64,000 nucleotides of DNA from NCBI RefSeq assembly GCF_900474185.1, contig NZ_UCNW01000008.1, positions 186,001 to 250,000 of the forward strand, written 5' to 3'. Of this stretch, positions 45,016-54,489 are shown one piece after another (position 1 is the stretch's first letter; each line of letters starts with the position of its first letter). The position numbers and the translations under genes are program-made. Under the pieces are notes generated by a model. That model saw only the letters and a list, made by a program, of their open reading frames with translations. It was not told where the DNA came from and did not search any database. This DNA is from Synechococcus sp. UW69. GTDB lineage: Bacteria > Cyanobacteriota > Cyanobacteriia > PCC-6307 > Cyanobiaceae.

Positions 45016-45045
45016 CTTATTTACCCCTTAACCTACAACAACAGG
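45016..45045 (+). promoter_or_regulatory. Pho-box-like repeat upstream of ptxA
   Basis: CTTATTTA, CTTAACCT and ACAACAGG are spaced at 11 bp (3-base spacers). CTTAACCT is the cyanobacterial Pho-box half-site consensus, and the first unit shares CTTA. The block sits about 45-75 bp upstream of the ptxA ATG in a strongly AT-rich region, so phosphate-starvation control by PhoB is likely. Confidence 0.62.
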
Positions 45046-45088: not shown

Positions 45089-46794
<1,706 letters not shown>

Positions 46795-46806
46795 ACAGGT
46801 ACCTCC

Positions 46807-46840
46807 GTCCCGATGGTTCACACCATCGGGACATTTTTTA
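46807..46840 (+). terminator. Intra-operon hairpin with T run between ptxB and ptxC
   Basis: A perfect 10-bp stem (GTCCCGATGG/CCATCGGGAC, 6-base loop) is followed by ATTTTTTAT. It looks like a rho-independent terminator, but the coupled permease gene begins just 10 bases later. Partial termination would give more binding protein than permease. Confidence 0.8.
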
Positions 46841-46849
46841 TCTCCCGTT

Positions 46850-47659
46850 ATGAGCGCTTCCGTTGATTCCTATCGCGCCATTCTTCGGCGCCATGAGCTG
46901 CGATGGCGGCAGCAATTCCTCCGTGTTCTGGTGATTCTCACGGCGGTGGTTGGTTCCCTGTCCGTTGTGGGCCTGTTTGATCCGAATCGAATCGCCACCG
47001 GGGTGCCGGCGATTTTGAACTTGCTGCCTGAAATGTTCCCACCGGATTTCGGGCGGTGGCAGTTCTGGATCAAGCCCTTGATCGACTCGATGGCCATGAG
47101 CATCGCGGGCACCTCAATCGCTGTTTTCTTCTCACTGTTGCTCTGTTTCTTCGCAGCAAGAAACACCAGCCCCAGCCGTGGCTTGTACGTCATGGCCACC
47201 GCAATACTCAACGTGACCCGAGCCGTTCCCGAGCTAATTCTCGGCATGATTCTTGTGGCCGCCGTGGGCTTCGGAGCACTGCCCGGAACGCTGGCCCTCG
47301 GTCTTCACTCCGTTGGCATGCTCGGCAAGTTCTACGCCGAGGCGATCGAGCTGTGTGATCAAGAACCGATCGAAGCCGCCCGCTCATCAGGGGCATCTGA
47401 ACTGCAGGTGATCGTTCACAGCATCCTTCCCCAGGTGTTCCCAGCCATGGCGGATGTCACGTTCTACCGCTGGGAATACAACTTTCGAGCCTCGATGGTG
47501 GTGGGCGCCGTGGGTGCCGGCGGCATTGGCTTGGAAATCATCAGTGCCCTGCGGATCATGGAGTACCAACAGGTCTCAGCCCTGCTGTTGGTGGTGCTCG
47601 TGGTGGTTACGGCGCTCGATTCAATGAGCAATGCCCTGCGCCATTGGATGGTGCAATGA
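46850..47659 (+). CDS. ptxC: Phosphite/phosphonate ABC importer permease
   Basis: The ATG at 46850 (MSASVDSYRAILRRHE) gives 269 residues. About five or six membrane helices and the PhnE inner-membrane motif EAARSSGASELQVIVHSILPQVFP, which couples to the ATPase, are visible. A longer frame from 46733 overlaps ptxB and is not needed. The stop overlaps the ptxD ATG as ATGA. Confidence 0.93.
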   Translation: MSASVDSYRAILRRHELRWRQQFLRVLVILTAVVGSLSVVGLFDPNRIATGVPAILNLLPEMFPPDFGRWQFWIKPLIDSMAMSIAGTSIAVFFSLLLCFFAARNTSPSRGLYVMATAILNVTRAVPELILGMILVAAVGFGALPGTLALGLHSVGMLGKFYAEAIELCDQEPIEAARSSGASELQVIVHSILPQVFPAMADVTFYRWEYNFRASMVVGAVGAGGIGLEIISALRIMEYQQVSALLLVVLVVVTALDSMSNALRHWMVQ

Positions 47660-48657
47660 CAACCCTCGTAAGCCATCAACACCGGCCCCATCTGGTGGTC
47701 ACGAACTATGTGCAAGAGGAGGTCATTGACTTCCTCTCCGAATTCGCACGGGTCACCGCCAATCGCAGCCGGGAACCCTGGAGCCGTCGATCTTTGCTGG
47801 AGGCAGCAGCGGACGCCGACGGCCTGCTGATGTTCATGCCGGATTGCGTCGATGCCGACTTTCTTGATCACTGCCCGCGGCTGCGCTCGATTGCCGGAGC
47901 CCTGCGTGGTTTCGACAACTTCGATCTCTCCGCCTGCGATGCACGGGAGATTCGCTATCAATTCATCCCCAATTTGTTGGCGGCACCAACGGCAGAACTC
48001 ACCGTTGCGATGCTGATCAGCCTGGCGCGATCCATCCCGGCAGGGGACGCCTTTGTGCGCACAGGTCAGTTCCCTGGATGGCGGCCGAACTTCTACTCCA
48101 AAGGAGTGATTAACAGCACAGTTGGCATCGTGGGAATGGGGCAACTCGGCCTTGAATTCGCCGAGCGCATGCGGGGCTTCGGCGCAACGATCCTCTACAG
48201 CGATCCCATTCGTCTTGATCGCCAATCTGAGCAACGTCTTGAACTGCAGCATGTGGAGTTCAACGACGTAATTGAACACAGTGATCACCTGGTGCTGATG
48301 GTGCCGCTCACAAACGACACGCTGCATCTGATCAATGCGGATGTATTGGCCCGTTGCAAGCCGGGAGCGGTGCTGATCAATCCATGCCGCGGCTCGGTGG
48401 TGGATGAACAGGCTGTTGTGCAGGCACTGCAATCGGGCCAGCTGGGGGGCTACGGAGCAGATGTTTTTGAGATGGAGGACTGGGCCCGACAGGACCACCC
48501 CAATTCCATTCCCCAGGCCTTGCTCGATCAACGCGATCACACCGTGCTCACGCCGCACATCGGTTCGGCCGTCCAATCGATCCGCGACGACATCGCCATG
48601 ACGGCGGCCCGCAATCTCAAGGCACTTGTTCAGACCACCCTGTTGCCGATCAGATGA
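47656..48657 (+). CDS. ptxD: Phosphite dehydrogenase
   Basis: From the ATG overlapping the permease stop the enzyme is 333 residues. It is a D-2-hydroxyacid-dehydrogenase-type protein with the NAD site GIVGMGQLG and an acidic residue (YSDP) after the second strand, favouring NAD. Catalytic residues in PtxD positions are Arg245 (NPCRGSV), Glu274 (FEMEDWARQD) and His301 (TPHIGSAV). The DWARxD segment is characteristic of PtxD rather than of glycerate dehydrogenases. It oxidises phosphite to phosphate. Coupled on both sides by ATGA overlaps. Confidence 0.92.
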   Translation: MTTLVSHQHRPHLVVTNYVQEEVIDFLSEFARVTANRSREPWSRRSLLEAAADADGLLMFMPDCVDADFLDHCPRLRSIAGALRGFDNFDLSACDAREIRYQFIPNLLAAPTAELTVAMLISLARSIPAGDAFVRTGQFPGWRPNFYSKGVINSTVGIVGMGQLGLEFAERMRGFGATILYSDPIRLDRQSEQRLELQHVEFNDVIEHSDHLVLMVPLTNDTLHLINADVLARCKPGAVLINPCRGSVVDEQAVVQALQSGQLGGYGADVFEMEDWARQDHPNSIPQALLDQRDHTVLTPHIGSAVQSIRDDIAMTAARNLKALVQTTLLPIR

Positions 48658-49418
48658 CCAACATCACAACGCACTGGGATCCGAAGGATCTCCTTCAATT
48701 CAAAGGGCTTCATCAGCAAGACGGTGTCGTTCATGTGCCTGGCTTGGTGGCAAGCGAAGCCATGGCCGAGCTGTTGGCTTGGGTTGACGACATCTCCAAC
48801 GCGTCAACCTTGGGGCGCCACTACTTCGAAAGCACAGCCCACGGCCGGGTCAAAGCGCGAACCGAAGACTTCGCCAAGGATCACCCTCCACTGCATCAGT
48901 TCCTAACCCAAGGGCGGGTGCACGACGTGCTCGAAGCATTGTTTGGCGAGCCACCGGTGCTGTTCAAGGAAAAGATCAACTACAAGCACCCCGGTGCAGC
49001 CGGGTATGCCCCCCATCAGGATGCACCGGCCTATCCGTATGGATCCCTGCACATCACGATGCTGCTGGCCTTGGATTCAGCTGATACCAGCAATGGTTGC
49101 TTGGAATTCGCCAAGGGGGCCCATCACAACGGGGTGATTGGAGTGAATGCCGATGGATGTCTACCGATTGAGCAGGCATCTCAACTTGAATGGACGCCGA
49201 TGCCTGTGGCTGCTGGAGACGCTGTGTTCTTCAACTCCTTTGCGCCGCACCGCAGCGGCACCAACCGCTCTGATCGTTCACGCCGCGCGCTGTACGTCAC
49301 CTACAACGCCAGCTCCGAAGGCGATTTGAGATCGGAGTACTACGACCACAAAAAGCAGGCGCTGGCTGAAGGGCGCGTCAGCTTGATCAACCATTTTCTC
49401 GGGGAGGACGTCTCATGA
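48654..49418 (+). CDS. phnY: Fe(II)/2-oxoglutarate-dependent phosphonate dioxygenase, PhnY-like
   Basis: The 254-residue PhyH-fold protein has the iron facial triad in APHQDAPAYP (H-x-D) and APHRSGTNRSDRSRRALYV (distal His and the 2-oxoglutarate Arg). In the PhnY/PhnZ pathway it hydroxylates C1 of 2-aminoethylphosphonate or methylphosphonate. The position between ptxD and an HD-domain gene supports this. Start overlaps ptxD by 4 bp. Which phosphonate is used cannot be told from sequence. Confidence 0.85.
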   Translation: MTNITTHWDPKDLLQFKGLHQQDGVVHVPGLVASEAMAELLAWVDDISNASTLGRHYFESTAHGRVKARTEDFAKDHPPLHQFLTQGRVHDVLEALFGEPPVLFKEKINYKHPGAAGYAPHQDAPAYPYGSLHITMLLALDSADTSNGCLEFAKGAHHNGVIGVNADGCLPIEQASQLEWTPMPVAAGDAVFFNSFAPHRSGTNRSDRSRRALYVTYNASSEGDLRSEYYDHKKQALAEGRVSLINHFLGEDVS

Positions 49419-50017
49419 CTGCACTGGCCGACCACGCCATGGAATGGATGAAATCCATGCAAGCGGGGGGTCGCGAAGAGCGCGTTGATCTGCTCTTCGC
49501 CTATCTCAACACCCACGGGCAATCCAGCTACGACCCATCGGTGACGCAGCTGGAGCATGCTTTGCAGACAGCACTTCTGGCACACCAGGAGTCGCACCAG
49601 CCCCACATGGTGGTGGCATCACTGCTTCATGACATCGGCCATCTGATGATCGATGAACACGATGAACGGGGAGATTTCCTCGATCAAGACTGTGCCCATG
49701 AGGCCGTCGCAGCCCGAGCACTCTCGGTGTTCTTCCCTGCGCAGGTCGTTGCCCCCGTACAGCGTCATGTCTCAGCCAAACGGCTGCTGTGTTCGCTGGA
49801 TGAGACGTATTACGCGGGGCTATCGGATGCGTCGAAACGCAGTTTCGCTGTGCAGGGTGGAGAACTGAGCCGTTCAGAAGCGATGCGTCTCTTGGAATTG
49901 GAGGGGATGAACGATGCCATGGCGCTGCGGCGCTGGGACGACCGGGCCAAGGTTCACGGGGTTGAAGTGCCCGACTTGGATGCCTACCGGCAGGTCGTCT
50001 TGGACCATCTCCTGTAA
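49415..50017 (+). CDS. phnZ: HD-domain mixed-valent diiron oxygenase, PhnZ-like
   Basis: The 200-residue HD-fold protein shows LEHALQTALLAHQ, then the HD pair in ASLLHDIGHLM and the later metal ligand in AARALSVFFPAQVVAPVQRHV. PhnZ uses two irons and oxygen to cleave the C-P bond of 1-hydroxyphosphonates, releasing phosphate. The family otherwise includes inositol-oxygenase-like enzymes, so the context (phnY, ptxD, importer) carries much of the call. It overlaps phnY by 4 bp and ends the unit. Confidence 0.85.
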   Translation: MTALADHAMEWMKSMQAGGREERVDLLFAYLNTHGQSSYDPSVTQLEHALQTALLAHQESHQPHMVVASLLHDIGHLMIDEHDERGDFLDQDCAHEAVAARALSVFFPAQVVAPVQRHVSAKRLLCSLDETYYAGLSDASKRSFAVQGGELSRSEAMRLLELEGMNDAMALRRWDDRAKVHGVEVPDLDAYRQVVLDHLL

Positions 50018-50427
50018 AGCAGGATTCAAGCGAGGTCAGCTGTCTGGGAGTTGCACACCATTGATCCCAGTTGCACACAATTCCAGGGACAAATTAGGGA
50101 CAAGCCCCTCAGGCCTATTCCTGTAACTAGGAGCTAAGTGGCAGCAGCGGCCAGAAACCCCAGCGCTGATCCGCAGGATTCACACCAGTTCCAGCCACCA
50201 CGCTCCCCATCAATGCAGTGATTCTGCAGAGGAATCGATCAGGCCAGGGGCAAACCGCCAACCGCGGCGCAAAACCACCCTGCGTCAACCATCCAAACGA
50301 CTCAGAAAGAGCTCGATGACCATCAAACAGAGGTGAGTTGAGCCGATTCGAACGGCATCCAGTCGTTTGTATGGCTCTCCTGAAATGGAATGGCTAACTC
50401 TGAAGACAGCAAGTTGCTTGCCGCCCG
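50018..50427. other. Non-coding repeat-bearing spacer
   Basis: This 410-bp gap holds repeat copy B, a pair of near-identical short motifs at 50050-50080 (TTGCACACCA and TTGCACACAA), and the presumed promoter of the acid phosphatase gene. No convincing reading frame is present. Confidence 0.65.
50097..50274. repeat. Direct repeat copy B, shared with copies A and C
   Basis: Bases 50140-50274 match copy A (42556-42690) at about 97%. Bases 50097-50188 match copy C (54398-54489) at about 83% without gaps. B therefore bridges the two modules. It is non-coding here, even though the A-like part derives from the starts and ends of two genes. Confidence 0.9.
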
Positions 50428-51279
50428 ATGCGTCGGATTGAACTTGGTCTTTTGGTGTTAGCTCTTTTCGGTTTAGGAGGCGTCACAGGACTCCCTGCTC
50501 AAGCGGCACAACCCACCTACTGCGAATCCAACGTCGGATCACCCAGTGATCTGAAGGAGTTGAAACACGGGCTCCTGCAGGGCTACCTCGATCCGAAAAC
50601 GCTTCCCGACTCCCTCAAACTGCTTGCTCCGCCGCCGGCACCTGGATCAGCAGCACAGGCACTCGATGAAGAGATCTCCAAGGACAATTTTTCACATGAA
50701 GGTACTGCACGCTGGAGTCAAGCAGCGACAGATGCCGATCTTCACTTCCCTGCCGCCGCATCGATTTTTTCCTGCAGTGTGGGCATCGAGATTTCCGAAG
50801 AACGCACACCAAGGCTTTACACGCTCCTTCGCCGATCACTCACCGATGCGGGATTGGCGTCCTACAAAGCCAAGAACCACTACCAGCGATCAAGGCCGTT
50901 CATGAGCAATGGGGAGTCGATCTGCACCCCTGATGATGAGAGTGCTCTGCGGTCCGACGGCTCCTATCCATCCGGGCACACCTCTGTGGGCTGGGCCTGG
51001 GCTCTAATCCTCAGTGAGATTGCCCCCAACCAACAGGATCAGATCCTGCAACGGGGAATGGATTACGGAAGGAGCCGAAACATCTGCAACGTGCACTGGC
51101 ACAGCGACGTTCAAGCGGGGCAGCTCATTGGCGCAGCAACGGTCGCACAACTGCATGCCAACCCCGTATTCCGTGCTGATCTGCGGGCTGCACGCAAAGA
51201 AGTGAAGGTGCAGCAAGCCACCAACAACATTGCCAACTCGATCAGCTGCAAGCGGGAGCAAGCGGCATTGCAGCCCTAA
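50428..51279 (+). CDS. Class A non-specific acid phosphatase (PAP2 family)
   Basis: The 283-residue protein has a signal peptide (residues 1-26, cut after PAQA). The full class A signature is intact: K149-x6-R156-P157, PSGH at 181-184, and S216-R-x5-H223-x3-D227. It should dephosphorylate organic phosphate esters in the periplasm. It heads a three-gene unit with a lipid-kinase-like fusion and a metallophosphoesterase, and lies downstream of repeat B. The KSR-type motif order rules out alkaline phosphatases. Confidence 0.93.
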   Translation: MRRIELGLLVLALFGLGGVTGLPAQAAQPTYCESNVGSPSDLKELKHGLLQGYLDPKTLPDSLKLLAPPPAPGSAAQALDEEISKDNFSHEGTARWSQAATDADLHFPAAASIFSCSVGIEISEERTPRLYTLLRRSLTDAGLASYKAKNHYQRSRPFMSNGESICTPDDESALRSDGSYPSGHTSVGWAWALILSEIAPNQQDQILQRGMDYGRSRNICNVHWHSDVQAGQLIGAATVAQLHANPVFRADLRAARKEVKVQQATNNIANSISCKREQAALQP

Positions 51280-51341
51280 CCAACCAAGAAGAAGAAACAA
51301 ACAACAACAACACAAGCAGACAACATCTCCAAGGCTGAGCC

Positions 51342-52649
51342 ATGCCCTCCACCATTGTCTTGAATGCCGATCCAGATGTTTGCCCCGCCATGGGGACCTG
51401 GATCACCAATAACACCCAGCTGCTCTCAGGTTTTTCTCTTCTCATCGCCGAAGACGTGATCGAGGAGCTCACCCTGCGCCATGAATTAGGTGGGCTTTCG
51501 ATCATTCCCTGTCGTGCCATCCGTGACGGTGGGGATATCAGCATGGCGGCCAAGGTCCTCGAAGGAGAGATCAGTGGCCTGGTCCATTTCCCGGCTCCAC
51601 CTGAACAAATGAGCAGGGATGTGCTCGCCGAACCACTGGTTCGTGCGGCCCTGCTCTGCGACTTGCCGATCGCCCTAAATCCAGCCACGGCATCCGCCCT
51701 GTTGCAAGGCATAAAACGCAGTCGGCGGGGCTATCTGATTTTCAATCCAATCTCCGGTCAAGGGGATCCTGAGACAGAACTCGCCGAGATTCGAAGTCAT
51801 CTCGAACCACAATTCATGCTGCAGGTTTGGAAAACCCAGCCGGATCTTGATCCTGCCGAGCAAGCTAAAGAGTTGATCAAGGAGATCAAAGCATTCGATG
51901 CCGAAGGAGATGGCGAATCGATCATCATTGCCTCGGGCGGTGATGGAACCGTTGGTGCCGTTGCCAGTGCCCTGCAGGGCAGTGATATCCCTCTAGGCAT
52001 TATTCCCCGTGGCACAGCCAACGCCTTTTCCGTTGCCCTGGGCATCCCCACAGGAGTGAAGGCCGCCTGCACCAATTTGCTTTTGGGCAATCTGCGACGG
52101 GTCGATGTGGCCTTGTGCAACGACCGGCCCATGATCCTGCTGGCTGGCCTTGGCTTTGAAGCGGGGATGGTGGATAAAGCCAGCCGTGAACTGAAAAACA
52201 TCCTTGGCCCGATGGCCTACATCTTTTCTGGTGCCCGGCAGCTGGTGGATCAACAACCATTCCAAGCCACCCTGCAGATCGATGGCAACGAATACCAGCT
52301 GGATACGAGCGCCATCACCGTGGCCAATGCCGCACCAGCCAGTTCGGTGATGGCGCAGGGGTTCGGAGAAGTGATTCCCGATGATGGGCTTCTTGAAGTG
52401 ATTGTGGCCACTCCCAAAGACCGCATTGGTGGTTTTTCGGTGCTGTCCAGCCTCGCCTGGTCGGCCATCAAAAGCAGCAACGCCAACCACAGCAACATTG
52501 CCTGTTTTCGAACCAAGCAGATTCAAATCAAGTTGAACGACGTTCAAAAACTGGTGATTGATGGAGAAGTGCTCGATGCACAAACCGTCACGGTGAGCGT
52601 GAACCCTCAAGCCTTGCAAGTGGTGGCACCCATCCCACTGAAATTTTGA
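51342..52649 (+). CDS. Methylglyoxal-synthase-like domain fused to diacylglycerol-kinase-type lipid kinase
   Basis: Residues 1-125 resemble methylglyoxal synthase (GGDISMAAKVLEGEISGLV with GGD at 63-65, then LLCDLPIALNPATASAL), but other catalytic residues appear lost. Residues 130-435 form a YegS/DgkB-type kinase: NPISG at 135-139, ASGGDGTV with GGDGT at 199-203, PRGTANAF at 222-229. It would phosphorylate diacylglycerol or a similar lipid. The stop overlaps the next start as TTGA. The MGS-like part may be regulatory rather than catalytic. The kinase assignment is firm and the role is inferred. Confidence 0.85.
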   Translation: MPSTIVLNADPDVCPAMGTWITNNTQLLSGFSLLIAEDVIEELTLRHELGGLSIIPCRAIRDGGDISMAAKVLEGEISGLVHFPAPPEQMSRDVLAEPLVRAALLCDLPIALNPATASALLQGIKRSRRGYLIFNPISGQGDPETELAEIRSHLEPQFMLQVWKTQPDLDPAEQAKELIKEIKAFDAEGDGESIIIASGGDGTVGAVASALQGSDIPLGIIPRGTANAFSVALGIPTGVKAACTNLLLGNLRRVDVALCNDRPMILLAGLGFEAGMVDKASRELKNILGPMAYIFSGARQLVDQQPFQATLQIDGNEYQLDTSAITVANAAPASSVMAQGFGEVIPDDGLLEVIVATPKDRIGGFSVLSSLAWSAIKSSNANHSNIACFRTKQIQIKLNDVQKLVIDGEVLDAQTVTVSVNPQALQVVAPIPLKF

Positions 52650-54184
52650 ATTTCGCCAGCGATCCCCCCCTTCAACGCAAGATCAGCCAGATGGGCAAGC
52701 GCGTGCGCTGGCAGCATCCGGAGCTGATACGTCGCGGGATCGATCAAACCCGACTCGTAATCAACAACGCCAATGGCACCCCTGCAGCGCACGATGCCTT
52801 TCACTTCTTAGTTCTTGGCGACAGTGGCACTGGCCGTCATCGGCGGCACAGCCCACCCCGTCGAATTGCGGAACGACTTCTGCCCCACAAAAAAGGCGCT
52901 GCCTTTTTGCTCCACACCGGAGATGTGGTGTATCTGGTGGGGGCTGCTGATCAGTACCGCGACAACTTTCTGAAGCCCTACAGGGAGTGGCTCCATCACA
53001 GTGAGGATTGGCAAACCATCAGCCATGAGGGGCTTGTCTTCAACCAACCCTTCCTTCCGGTTCCGGGAAATCACGACTACTACGACCTCTCCATTCCGGT
53101 GGCATTGATTGCAGGTGTCACCCTGCCATTGCGGCGGCATCTGCAATGGATGCATGACATCGACGCCGGATGGCGCGGCTCACGGCAGGGGGAAACCTAT
53201 GCCCGCGCATTCCTTGATGTTCTCGCCGACATCCCCTTAACCCATCTCGGCGATCACCTTGACAAGCACTACGACGTCTCGTGGGACGGAAAACGATGCC
53301 TGCGCTACCAACCCGGGATCAACACTCGATTGCCCAACCGCTACTACCGCTTCCGGCATTCGGGTGTTGACGTTTTTGCAATCGATTCGAACACACTGTT
53401 GACAACAGCCAAGCCGTCGACAAGCAACGTTAAACGTCGGCAAGAGCTACGCAGTCTTGAACAACAACAAGCCAATCTCTATAGAGATTTGGCGAACAGC
53501 AATCTCAGCGAAGAGAATCGCGATGCACTCCTCGATGAACTTGAAACGCTTCAGGAGGAATGCTTCGATCTTCAACGCCATTTCAGGCCCAGTGCATCCG
53601 TTGATCAAGAGCAACTGACCTGGCTCAAGCAAGGGCTAATCGCGTCCCATCGTGATCCCGACGCACGTGGACGCATCTTGACGATGCATCACCCCGCTTA
53701 TGTCACAGAAAAAACCAAATGGAGTCAGGCCGATACGCAGGCGATTCGCAACCACCTCAGGGATGTCTTCGACGAGGTTGCTTCATCTCTTGGGGGCGCC
53801 CTTAATTCACCTTTAGTAGATCTTGTTCTCAGTGGCCATGCCCACTGCATGGAGGTGCTGCGTACCCATGAAACCGGACACGCCGATCGCGAGATCAACT
53901 GGGTGATCTGCGGCGGAAGCGGCTATGGGCTCCGCATGCAACGGCGTGAGGGCCCTGAGCTGATCGAACAGGGCGAGGCAGGAAACAGCAGCGTGATCGC
54001 CAGCAACAACCTCTTCATCGGACGGAACTGGAATGGCACTGCTGAAGGAGATGCCTACAGCGGCCTGCGCATCGACATTGCTGAGGGAAAGCCGCTCAGG
54101 ATGTCCTTAACACCGTTGGTGTCGTCCCGAACCAGCAAGGGATGGATTGATGCAGAACCTGCTCCAATCACTCTGGGGGGGTAG
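52646..54184 (+). CDS. Calcineurin-like metallophosphoesterase
   Basis: From the TTG coupled to the previous stop the protein is 512 residues. An ATG at 52691 is an alternative. The dimetal site is visible: GDS at 58-60, HTGDVVY with Asp93, GNHDYY at 141-146, TMHHPAY and LSGHAHCMEVL. The order matches purple-acid-phosphatase-like enzymes. A helical insertion rich in Gln and Leu follows (RQELRSLEQQQANLYRDL). No signal peptide is seen, so it may be cytosolic. Substrate unknown. Confidence 0.88.
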   Translation: MNFASDPPLQRKISQMGKRVRWQHPELIRRGIDQTRLVINNANGTPAAHDAFHFLVLGDSGTGRHRRHSPPRRIAERLLPHKKGAAFLLHTGDVVYLVGAADQYRDNFLKPYREWLHHSEDWQTISHEGLVFNQPFLPVPGNHDYYDLSIPVALIAGVTLPLRRHLQWMHDIDAGWRGSRQGETYARAFLDVLADIPLTHLGDHLDKHYDVSWDGKRCLRYQPGINTRLPNRYYRFRHSGVDVFAIDSNTLLTTAKPSTSNVKRRQELRSLEQQQANLYRDLANSNLSEENRDALLDELETLQEECFDLQRHFRPSASVDQEQLTWLKQGLIASHRDPDARGRILTMHHPAYVTEKTKWSQADTQAIRNHLRDVFDEVASSLGGALNSPLVDLVLSGHAHCMEVLRTHETGHADREINWVICGGSGYGLRMQRREGPELIEQGEAGNSSVIASNNLFIGRNWNGTAEGDAYSGLRIDIAEGKPLRMSLTPLVSSRTSKGWIDAEPAPITLGG

Positions 54185-54397
54185 GTCGTGAGCAAGACAA
54201 AGCTCATACAGGGTTCAACATCTCCGTGCGCTGCGCTGTGATATTGAAGCCAGCTCATATTCCTTGATAATGAATGCCGTAACCAGAGGGCTGTAGGGAA
54301 GACAAAGCGGATGTCGAAAAAACGTCAAGAAGCTCTGTAGGCACGTTGAAGTTGCTCAGTATTCACCCCAATTGCACCAGAAATCATGAACAACTCA

Positions 54398-54489
54398 GGG
54401 CCCAGCTCCTCAGATCTGTTCCAACAACTGGGAGCTAAGTAGCAGCAGCGGTAAGAAACCCGAGCGCTGATCAGCAGGATTCACATCAG
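54398..54489. repeat. Direct repeat copy C
   Basis: These 92 bp match copy B 50097-50188 without gaps at about 83% (16 mismatches counted by eye). Similarity ends abruptly after GATTCACATCAG. It lies downstream of the metallophosphoesterase and closes the second phosphorus module. Confidence 0.85.

Follow-up and report, generated by a model that had tools for sequence, protein, structure and literature searches.

A methylglyoxal synthase-like domain with an apparently lost active site, fused to a lipid kinase in Synechococcus sp. UW69

The window analysed here, a stretch of 64,000 nucleotides from Synechococcus sp. UW69 (contig NZ_UCNW01000008.1, positions 186,001 to 250,000), carries on its forward strand an ATG-initiated open reading frame (51342..52649) of 435 residues in which a domain resembling methylglyoxal synthase (MGS) precedes a lipid kinase. 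Both the frame and its two-domain make-up are confirmed, and the in-frame TGA found two codons 5' of the ATG implies that the N-terminal domain belongs to the product. Residues 1-125 (51342..51716, forward strand) make up the MGS-fold domain, whose active site appears to be lost, and residues 128-435 (51723..52646, forward strand) a kinase of the YegS/DgkB/PRK00861 type with intact motifs. The stop codon of the fusion is overlapped by 4 nt by a partner gene on the same strand (52646..54184), which encodes a purple-acid-phosphatase-like metallophosphoesterase (Metallophos, E=5e-8). No promoter or terminator above chance level emerged from scans of 49900-54400.

Residues 1-125 are matched by two NCBIfam MGS models (NF003559, E=3.5e-10; TIGR00160, E=4.4e-7) at scores short of the curated equivalog cut-offs (37.5 vs 84 bits, 30.9 vs 146.9 bits). 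The Pfam MGS model gives no match on this domain; across the UW69 genome it finds only CarB, PurH and a fusion of a cyclic-nucleotide-binding domain with MGS, and misses the kinase fusion. The best match among solved MGS structures is PDB 1vmd (E=4.7e-6), and in a profile-profile comparison 13 marine-clade N-terminal domains match 13 intact cyanobacterial MGS domains from end to end of the marine profile (97.4% probability, E=1.1e-11). The fusion was modelled with AlphaFold2 as a single chain (mean predicted local distance difference test, pLDDT, 82.6; predicted template modelling score, pTM, 0.65), and the N-terminal part of the model superposes on solved MGS from Thermus, E. coli, B. subtilis and others with Z of 17.5-19.6 over 120-125 residues, at a root-mean-square deviation of mostly 1.7-2.4 A and an identity of 17-24%. 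As modelled, residues 1-125 thus possess the MGS fold. The original prediction, made from the letters of the window, had aligned these residues with MGS and proposed to compare a predicted structure with MgsA; profiles, PDB matches and superposition all agree with it, and an unrelated fold, which it had named as refuting, is excluded by the superposition.

The state of the active site was assessed at 14 positions numbered after E. coli MgsA (H19, D20, K23, T45, G46, T47, T48, S65, G66, G70, D71, D91, H98 and D101), whose roles are established for MGS; the E. coli reference agrees at residues 27-129 with HMMER alignments and in its AHDxKK segment with Thermus chains. In the alignment the UW69 fusion retains two of the 14, G70 and D71, within the GGD kept at residues 63-65 (51528..51536, forward strand), the place of the MGS catalytic base Asp71. 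The remaining 12 are changed (H19D, D20P, K23C, T45A, G46E, T47D, T48V, S65A, G66I, D91A, H98R and D101L), so that AHDxxK reads ADPDVC (H19 to D10, encoded at 51369..51371 on the forward strand; D20 to P11; K23 to C14), ATGTTG reads IAEDVI, SGPxGGD reads AIRDGGD and DPLxxxPHxPD reads APPEQMSRDVL (H98 to R92, D101 to L95). Among the catalytic residues H19, D71, D91, H98 and D101, D71 alone survives. Judged from these residues, the MGS catalytic site of the UW69 fusion is dead, as had been proposed from the motif replacements and the retained GGD, both of which reappear in our alignment. D65, the equivalent of D71, is conserved in 33 of 33 Cyanobiaceae, and this might be taken to mean that the domain is a weak or altered MGS, or that it performs some other reaction with this aspartate; H19, H98, D101 and the phosphate site are nevertheless gone, the UW69 genome has in its cyclic-nucleotide-binding/MGS fusion a separate protein with the main site residues, and we hold this explanation to be extremely improbable. 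Of 67 sequences, 62 have both D71 and R107 and 3 have neither (Fisher P=2e-4, uncorrected for relatedness), a co-retention that suggests a structural salt bridge.

The former substrate site also bears on a second proposal of the original prediction, namely that the MGS fold could still bind phosphate or dihydroxyacetone phosphate and control the kinase in this way. In its favour, phosphate inhibits MGS, one structure of a Thermus MGS contains phosphate (2xw6), and carbamoyl phosphate synthetase has an MGS-like domain as its allosteric domain. The activator site of CPS1 has been described (PMC4655335). The idea of a phosphate or triose-phosphate sensor nonetheless fails for the UW69 fusion, because the contacts to substrate phosphate K23, T45, G46, T47, T48, S65 and G66 are replaced by C, A, E, D, V, A and I, none surviving, and because the former pocket gains the acidic residues D10, E37 and D38; we consider it very unlikely.

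The C-terminal half is a member of the YegS/DgkB-type lipid kinase family. It exceeds the cut-offs of NF002033 (PRK00861; 385.3 vs 293 bits) and TIGR00147 (120.6 vs 118.65 bits), is matched in Pfam by DAGK_cat (E=5e-27, 94 bits) and YegS_C (E=1.5e-15), and superposes on diacylglycerol kinases with Z of about 30 and on NAD kinases with Z of about 16. The motifs NPISG (135-139), GGDGT (199-203; 51936..51950, forward strand), PRGTANAF (222-229), DDG (347-349) and DGE (407-409; 52560..52568, forward strand) are all present, in keeping with the intact kinase half foreseen from NPxSG, GGDGT and PRGTANAF; across an alignment of 62 sequences the nucleotide-binding GGDGT is invariant, and D348 and DGE are invariant or nearly so. 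In the alignment E409 corresponds to the glutamate of the DGE motif in S. aureus DgkB (2qv7), by our own count E273. On these grounds the UW69 fusion is probably active as a lipid kinase.

Fusions of this kind are already known from Synechocystis PCC 6803, where knockout of sll0036, which encodes the fusion, gave less methylglyoxal and faster mixotrophic growth, and where the authors described an MGS motif together with a NAD-kinase motif that they judged inactive (PMC11897720). An MGS deletion mutant of the same organism contained low methylglyoxal in the presence of glucose (PMC7407080). Carried over to UW69, the view of a defunct NAD-kinase-like domain would leave neither half an enzyme. 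Pfam NAD_kinase does barely pass its cut-off on the UW69 fusion (27.0 vs 25.5), beside DAGK_cat at 94 bits, and the NCBIfam NAD kinase models give no match to it at E up to 1; the NF002033 score, the structural Z scores, the lipid kinase motifs and a ratio of nonsynonymous to synonymous substitution rates (dN/dS) of 0.05 in the kinase half all argue against this view, which we find highly improbable. In the Synechocystis salina orthologue the C-terminal half is assigned by Pfam to DAGK_cat and YegS_C, with NAD_kinase under its cut-off, and it therefore seems better to replace the NAD-kinase reading of Sll0036 by that of a lipid kinase; a lipid effect may then be possible in the published knockout phenotype.

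The UW69 fusion belongs with the Sll0036-type proteins both in its layout, an MGS domain followed at once in the same frame by a PRK00861 kinase, and in its place in the kinase phylogeny. It is thus one of a known kind, the cyanobacterial MGS-lipid kinase fusion, and what is new here is the pseudo-MGS and the coupled phosphoesterase; a limited literature search, confined to open-access text and pairing MGS with lipid kinase, with diacylglycerol kinase or with pseudoenzyme, yielded no description of the dead variant. The fusion occurs in 54 of 250 Cyanobiaceae genomes, at 46-100% identity, five of the 34 genomes of the genus among them, and in many further cyanobacterial families, where many copies retain the whole MGS site and orthologues with 12-14 of the 14 positions are found; among the loci with a name are those of Synechococcus, Nodosilinea, Phormidium, Xenococcus and Synechocystis salina. 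The MGS domain is missing from many other kinases of the same family in cyanobacteria. In a tree of 97 kinase domains (19 with intact MGS, 46 with degenerate MGS and 32 without it), the degenerate state requires at least five changes on well-supported branches, so the loss of the MGS site has been repeated within Cyanobacteria. Every sampled Cyanobiaceae fusion is degenerate; freshwater members often still hold T45, D91 and D101 along with D71, and marine members have none of the first three, the marine/freshwater split being our reading of tree position and named relatives.

Selection on the dead domain can be gauged against a neutral dN/dS near 1. When pooled, marine-clade N-terminal domains give 0.151 (0.112-0.195), those of freshwater Cyanobiaceae 0.347 (0.234-0.484) and those of intact fusions 0.122 (0.069-0.198); the corresponding kinase halves give 0.054, 0.163 and 0.077. 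The dead domain is hence clearly under purifying selection, and in the marine clade its value is not measurably separated from that of the live domain. One may still wonder whether the domain is a mere passenger that stays folded only because the kinase would be poorly expressed or folded if its N-terminus were unfolded or missing, with no role of its own. Related kinases in many cyanobacteria do without it, its site was lost stepwise with freshwater Cyanobiaceae keeping more than marine ones, and in degenerate Cyanobiaceae it evolves faster than the kinase. We find this rather unlikely all the same: the marine dN/dS is close to that of catalytically intact domains, the domain is kept in every full-length Cyanobiaceae copy over a deep tree, and it has acquired near-invariant clade-specific residues that include W20, F83, L112 and G123.

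Several sequences depart from the common architecture. Near its start, the fusion gene in one fragmented assembly of the genus (L008 / L010, genome G014:C26) contains an in-frame stop codon and changes frame, possibly as a pseudogene or through faulty assembly. Frames of about 676-679 residues (L177:7732-9771 and L137:3704-5734) combine a degenerate MGS domain and a kinase of the same family with an additional segment. In genome G498 (family f7) a large acidic low-complexity protein (L122:1489-3258, reverse strand) ends in an MGS-like domain with GGD changed to GGY, apparently another pseudo-MGS in a separate architecture, and frames of 600-690 residues resembling it occur in G355, G377 and G413.

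The partner metallophosphoesterase is found in 52 of the 54 Cyanobiaceae genomes with the fusion and in none of the 196 without it (Fisher P=7e-52, uncorrected for relatedness), nearly always directly downstream. Its metal-binding motifs are conserved. Foldseek relates its model to pig purple acid phosphatase (1ute, E=1e-9), and the nearest folds are purple acid phosphatase, SMPDL3A and PhoD, for a model of moderate quality (pLDDT 74); a sequence search of the PDB returned chance matches only, and no signal peptide is obvious by eye. The partners at L156:9317-10705 and L158:6622-7986 are without the helical insert of some 60-70 residues (about 252-316 in UW69) that the others have. In other families, among genomes with an MGS-less kinase the metallophosphoesterase lies directly downstream in 13 of 35 and anywhere in 30 of 35, and among those with an intact fusion only it is present in 1 of about 15, both groups having been sorted by hand from tables and the counts being uncorrected for relatedness. 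Kinase and phosphoesterase look like the constant unit and the MGS domain like an extra part, an enzyme in some lineages and without catalysis in others. The strict pairing makes the two genes a candidate kinase-phosphatase unit of marine picocyanobacteria.

Upstream, 62 bp before the fusion, lies a PAP2/PhoC-like acid phosphatase gene on the forward strand (50428..51279; PF01569, E=1.9e-14; NF045654, 193 bits, under the cut-off of 430) that is common to 6 of 20 relatives. It follows a run of genes at 45089-50017, phnC-phnD-phnE, a D-2-hydroxyacid dehydrogenase with a possible likeness to phosphite dehydrogenase, and oxygenases homologous to PhnY (methylphosphonate hydroxylase) and PhnZ (hydroxymethylphosphonate dioxygenase), likely a phosphonate or phosphite utilisation cluster. 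These local genes suggest a phosphorus-acquisition neighbourhood, and taken alone their nearness would favour a phosphate sensor. They adjoin the fusion only in UW69 and its closest relative G022, however, and we rejected a phosphorus island as a general feature; in other marine relatives the gene upstream of the fusion is, judged by eye, glmU. A single Pho-box-like site was seen outside the fusion gene, upstream of phnC (45016-45034), and none upstream of the fusion gene or the acid phosphatase. Elsewhere in the genome, the cyclic-nucleotide-binding/MGS protein (L003:985-1878; G000:C9:124031-124921; 297 residues) retains H19, K23, TGTT, SGPLGGD, D91, H98 and D101, with D20 changed to N, and is on sequence grounds a candidate cyclic-nucleotide-regulated methylglyoxal synthase. 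Of the 34 genomes in the genus, 16 give a match to it, though some of these matches are weak; as a replacement for the lost activity it is not strict, G003, G007 and G022 having a dead fusion and no such protein.

Taken together, we think it probable that the gene encodes a working lipid kinase in which a pseudoenzyme domain has been kept as an assembly or regulatory module, and which is paired with a phosphatase. The protein would descend from two-domain ancestors that, like Synechocystis Sll0036, joined an active MGS to a lipid kinase on a single chain, and along the lineage to Cyanobiaceae the active and phosphate-binding site would have been lost stepwise with the fold held under purifying selection. 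Free MGS enzymes are hexamers, and the dead domain would most likely serve the kinase without catalysis, either by holding it in an oligomer or through a new regulatory contact. The kinase would act jointly with the translationally coupled metallophosphoesterase in a pathway that the two presumably share; probably one enzyme would oppose or follow the other on a lipid or phospho-metabolite. Several points weigh against this picture: D71 is kept; the placing of the two domains is unsure because of the pTM of the single-chain model; the marine N-terminal domain changes at about three times the rate of the kinase, as would suit a looser role; and purifying selection could reflect merely a need not to misfold. 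It is tempting, if doubtful, to go one step further and suppose, by analogy with carbamoyl phosphate synthetase, that the dead domain repeatedly and independently became a ligand-responsive allosteric module on the lipid kinase, in which case a triose-phosphate enzyme would have turned into a controller of membrane-lipid phosphorylation. Within one phylum the fusions grade from an intact bifunctional enzyme through half-decayed forms to a kinase with a fully dead pseudoenzyme, so that it can be tested directly how an enzyme turns into a non-catalytic module.

Compared with known systems, the N-terminal domain shares its fold and GGD segment with bacterial MgsA (1b93, 2xw6) and differs from it in being without the catalytic and phosphate-binding residues and in being fused to a kinase. 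The entire C-terminal half, with its catalytic motifs, is that of the YegS/DgkB/BmrU lipid kinases (PRK00861, NF002033), to which an additional N-terminal MGS-fold domain has been joined. The partner has the metallophosphoesterase motifs and fold in common with purple acid phosphatases, PhoD and SMPDL3A. Carbamoyl phosphate synthetase likewise joins a non-catalytic MGS-like domain to another enzyme, which the domain regulates; there, however, the domain is C-terminal and has a known ligand, whereas that of UW69 is N-terminal. The closest relatives are the Sll0036-type fusions, which have the same domain order and kinase subfamily (the S. salina orthologue is 41% identical to the UW69 fusion); in these the MGS site is kept and methylglyoxal production is supported in vivo, whereas in UW69 the site is lost and the fusion is accompanied by a coupled metallophosphoesterase gene that is absent from most genomes with an intact fusion only.
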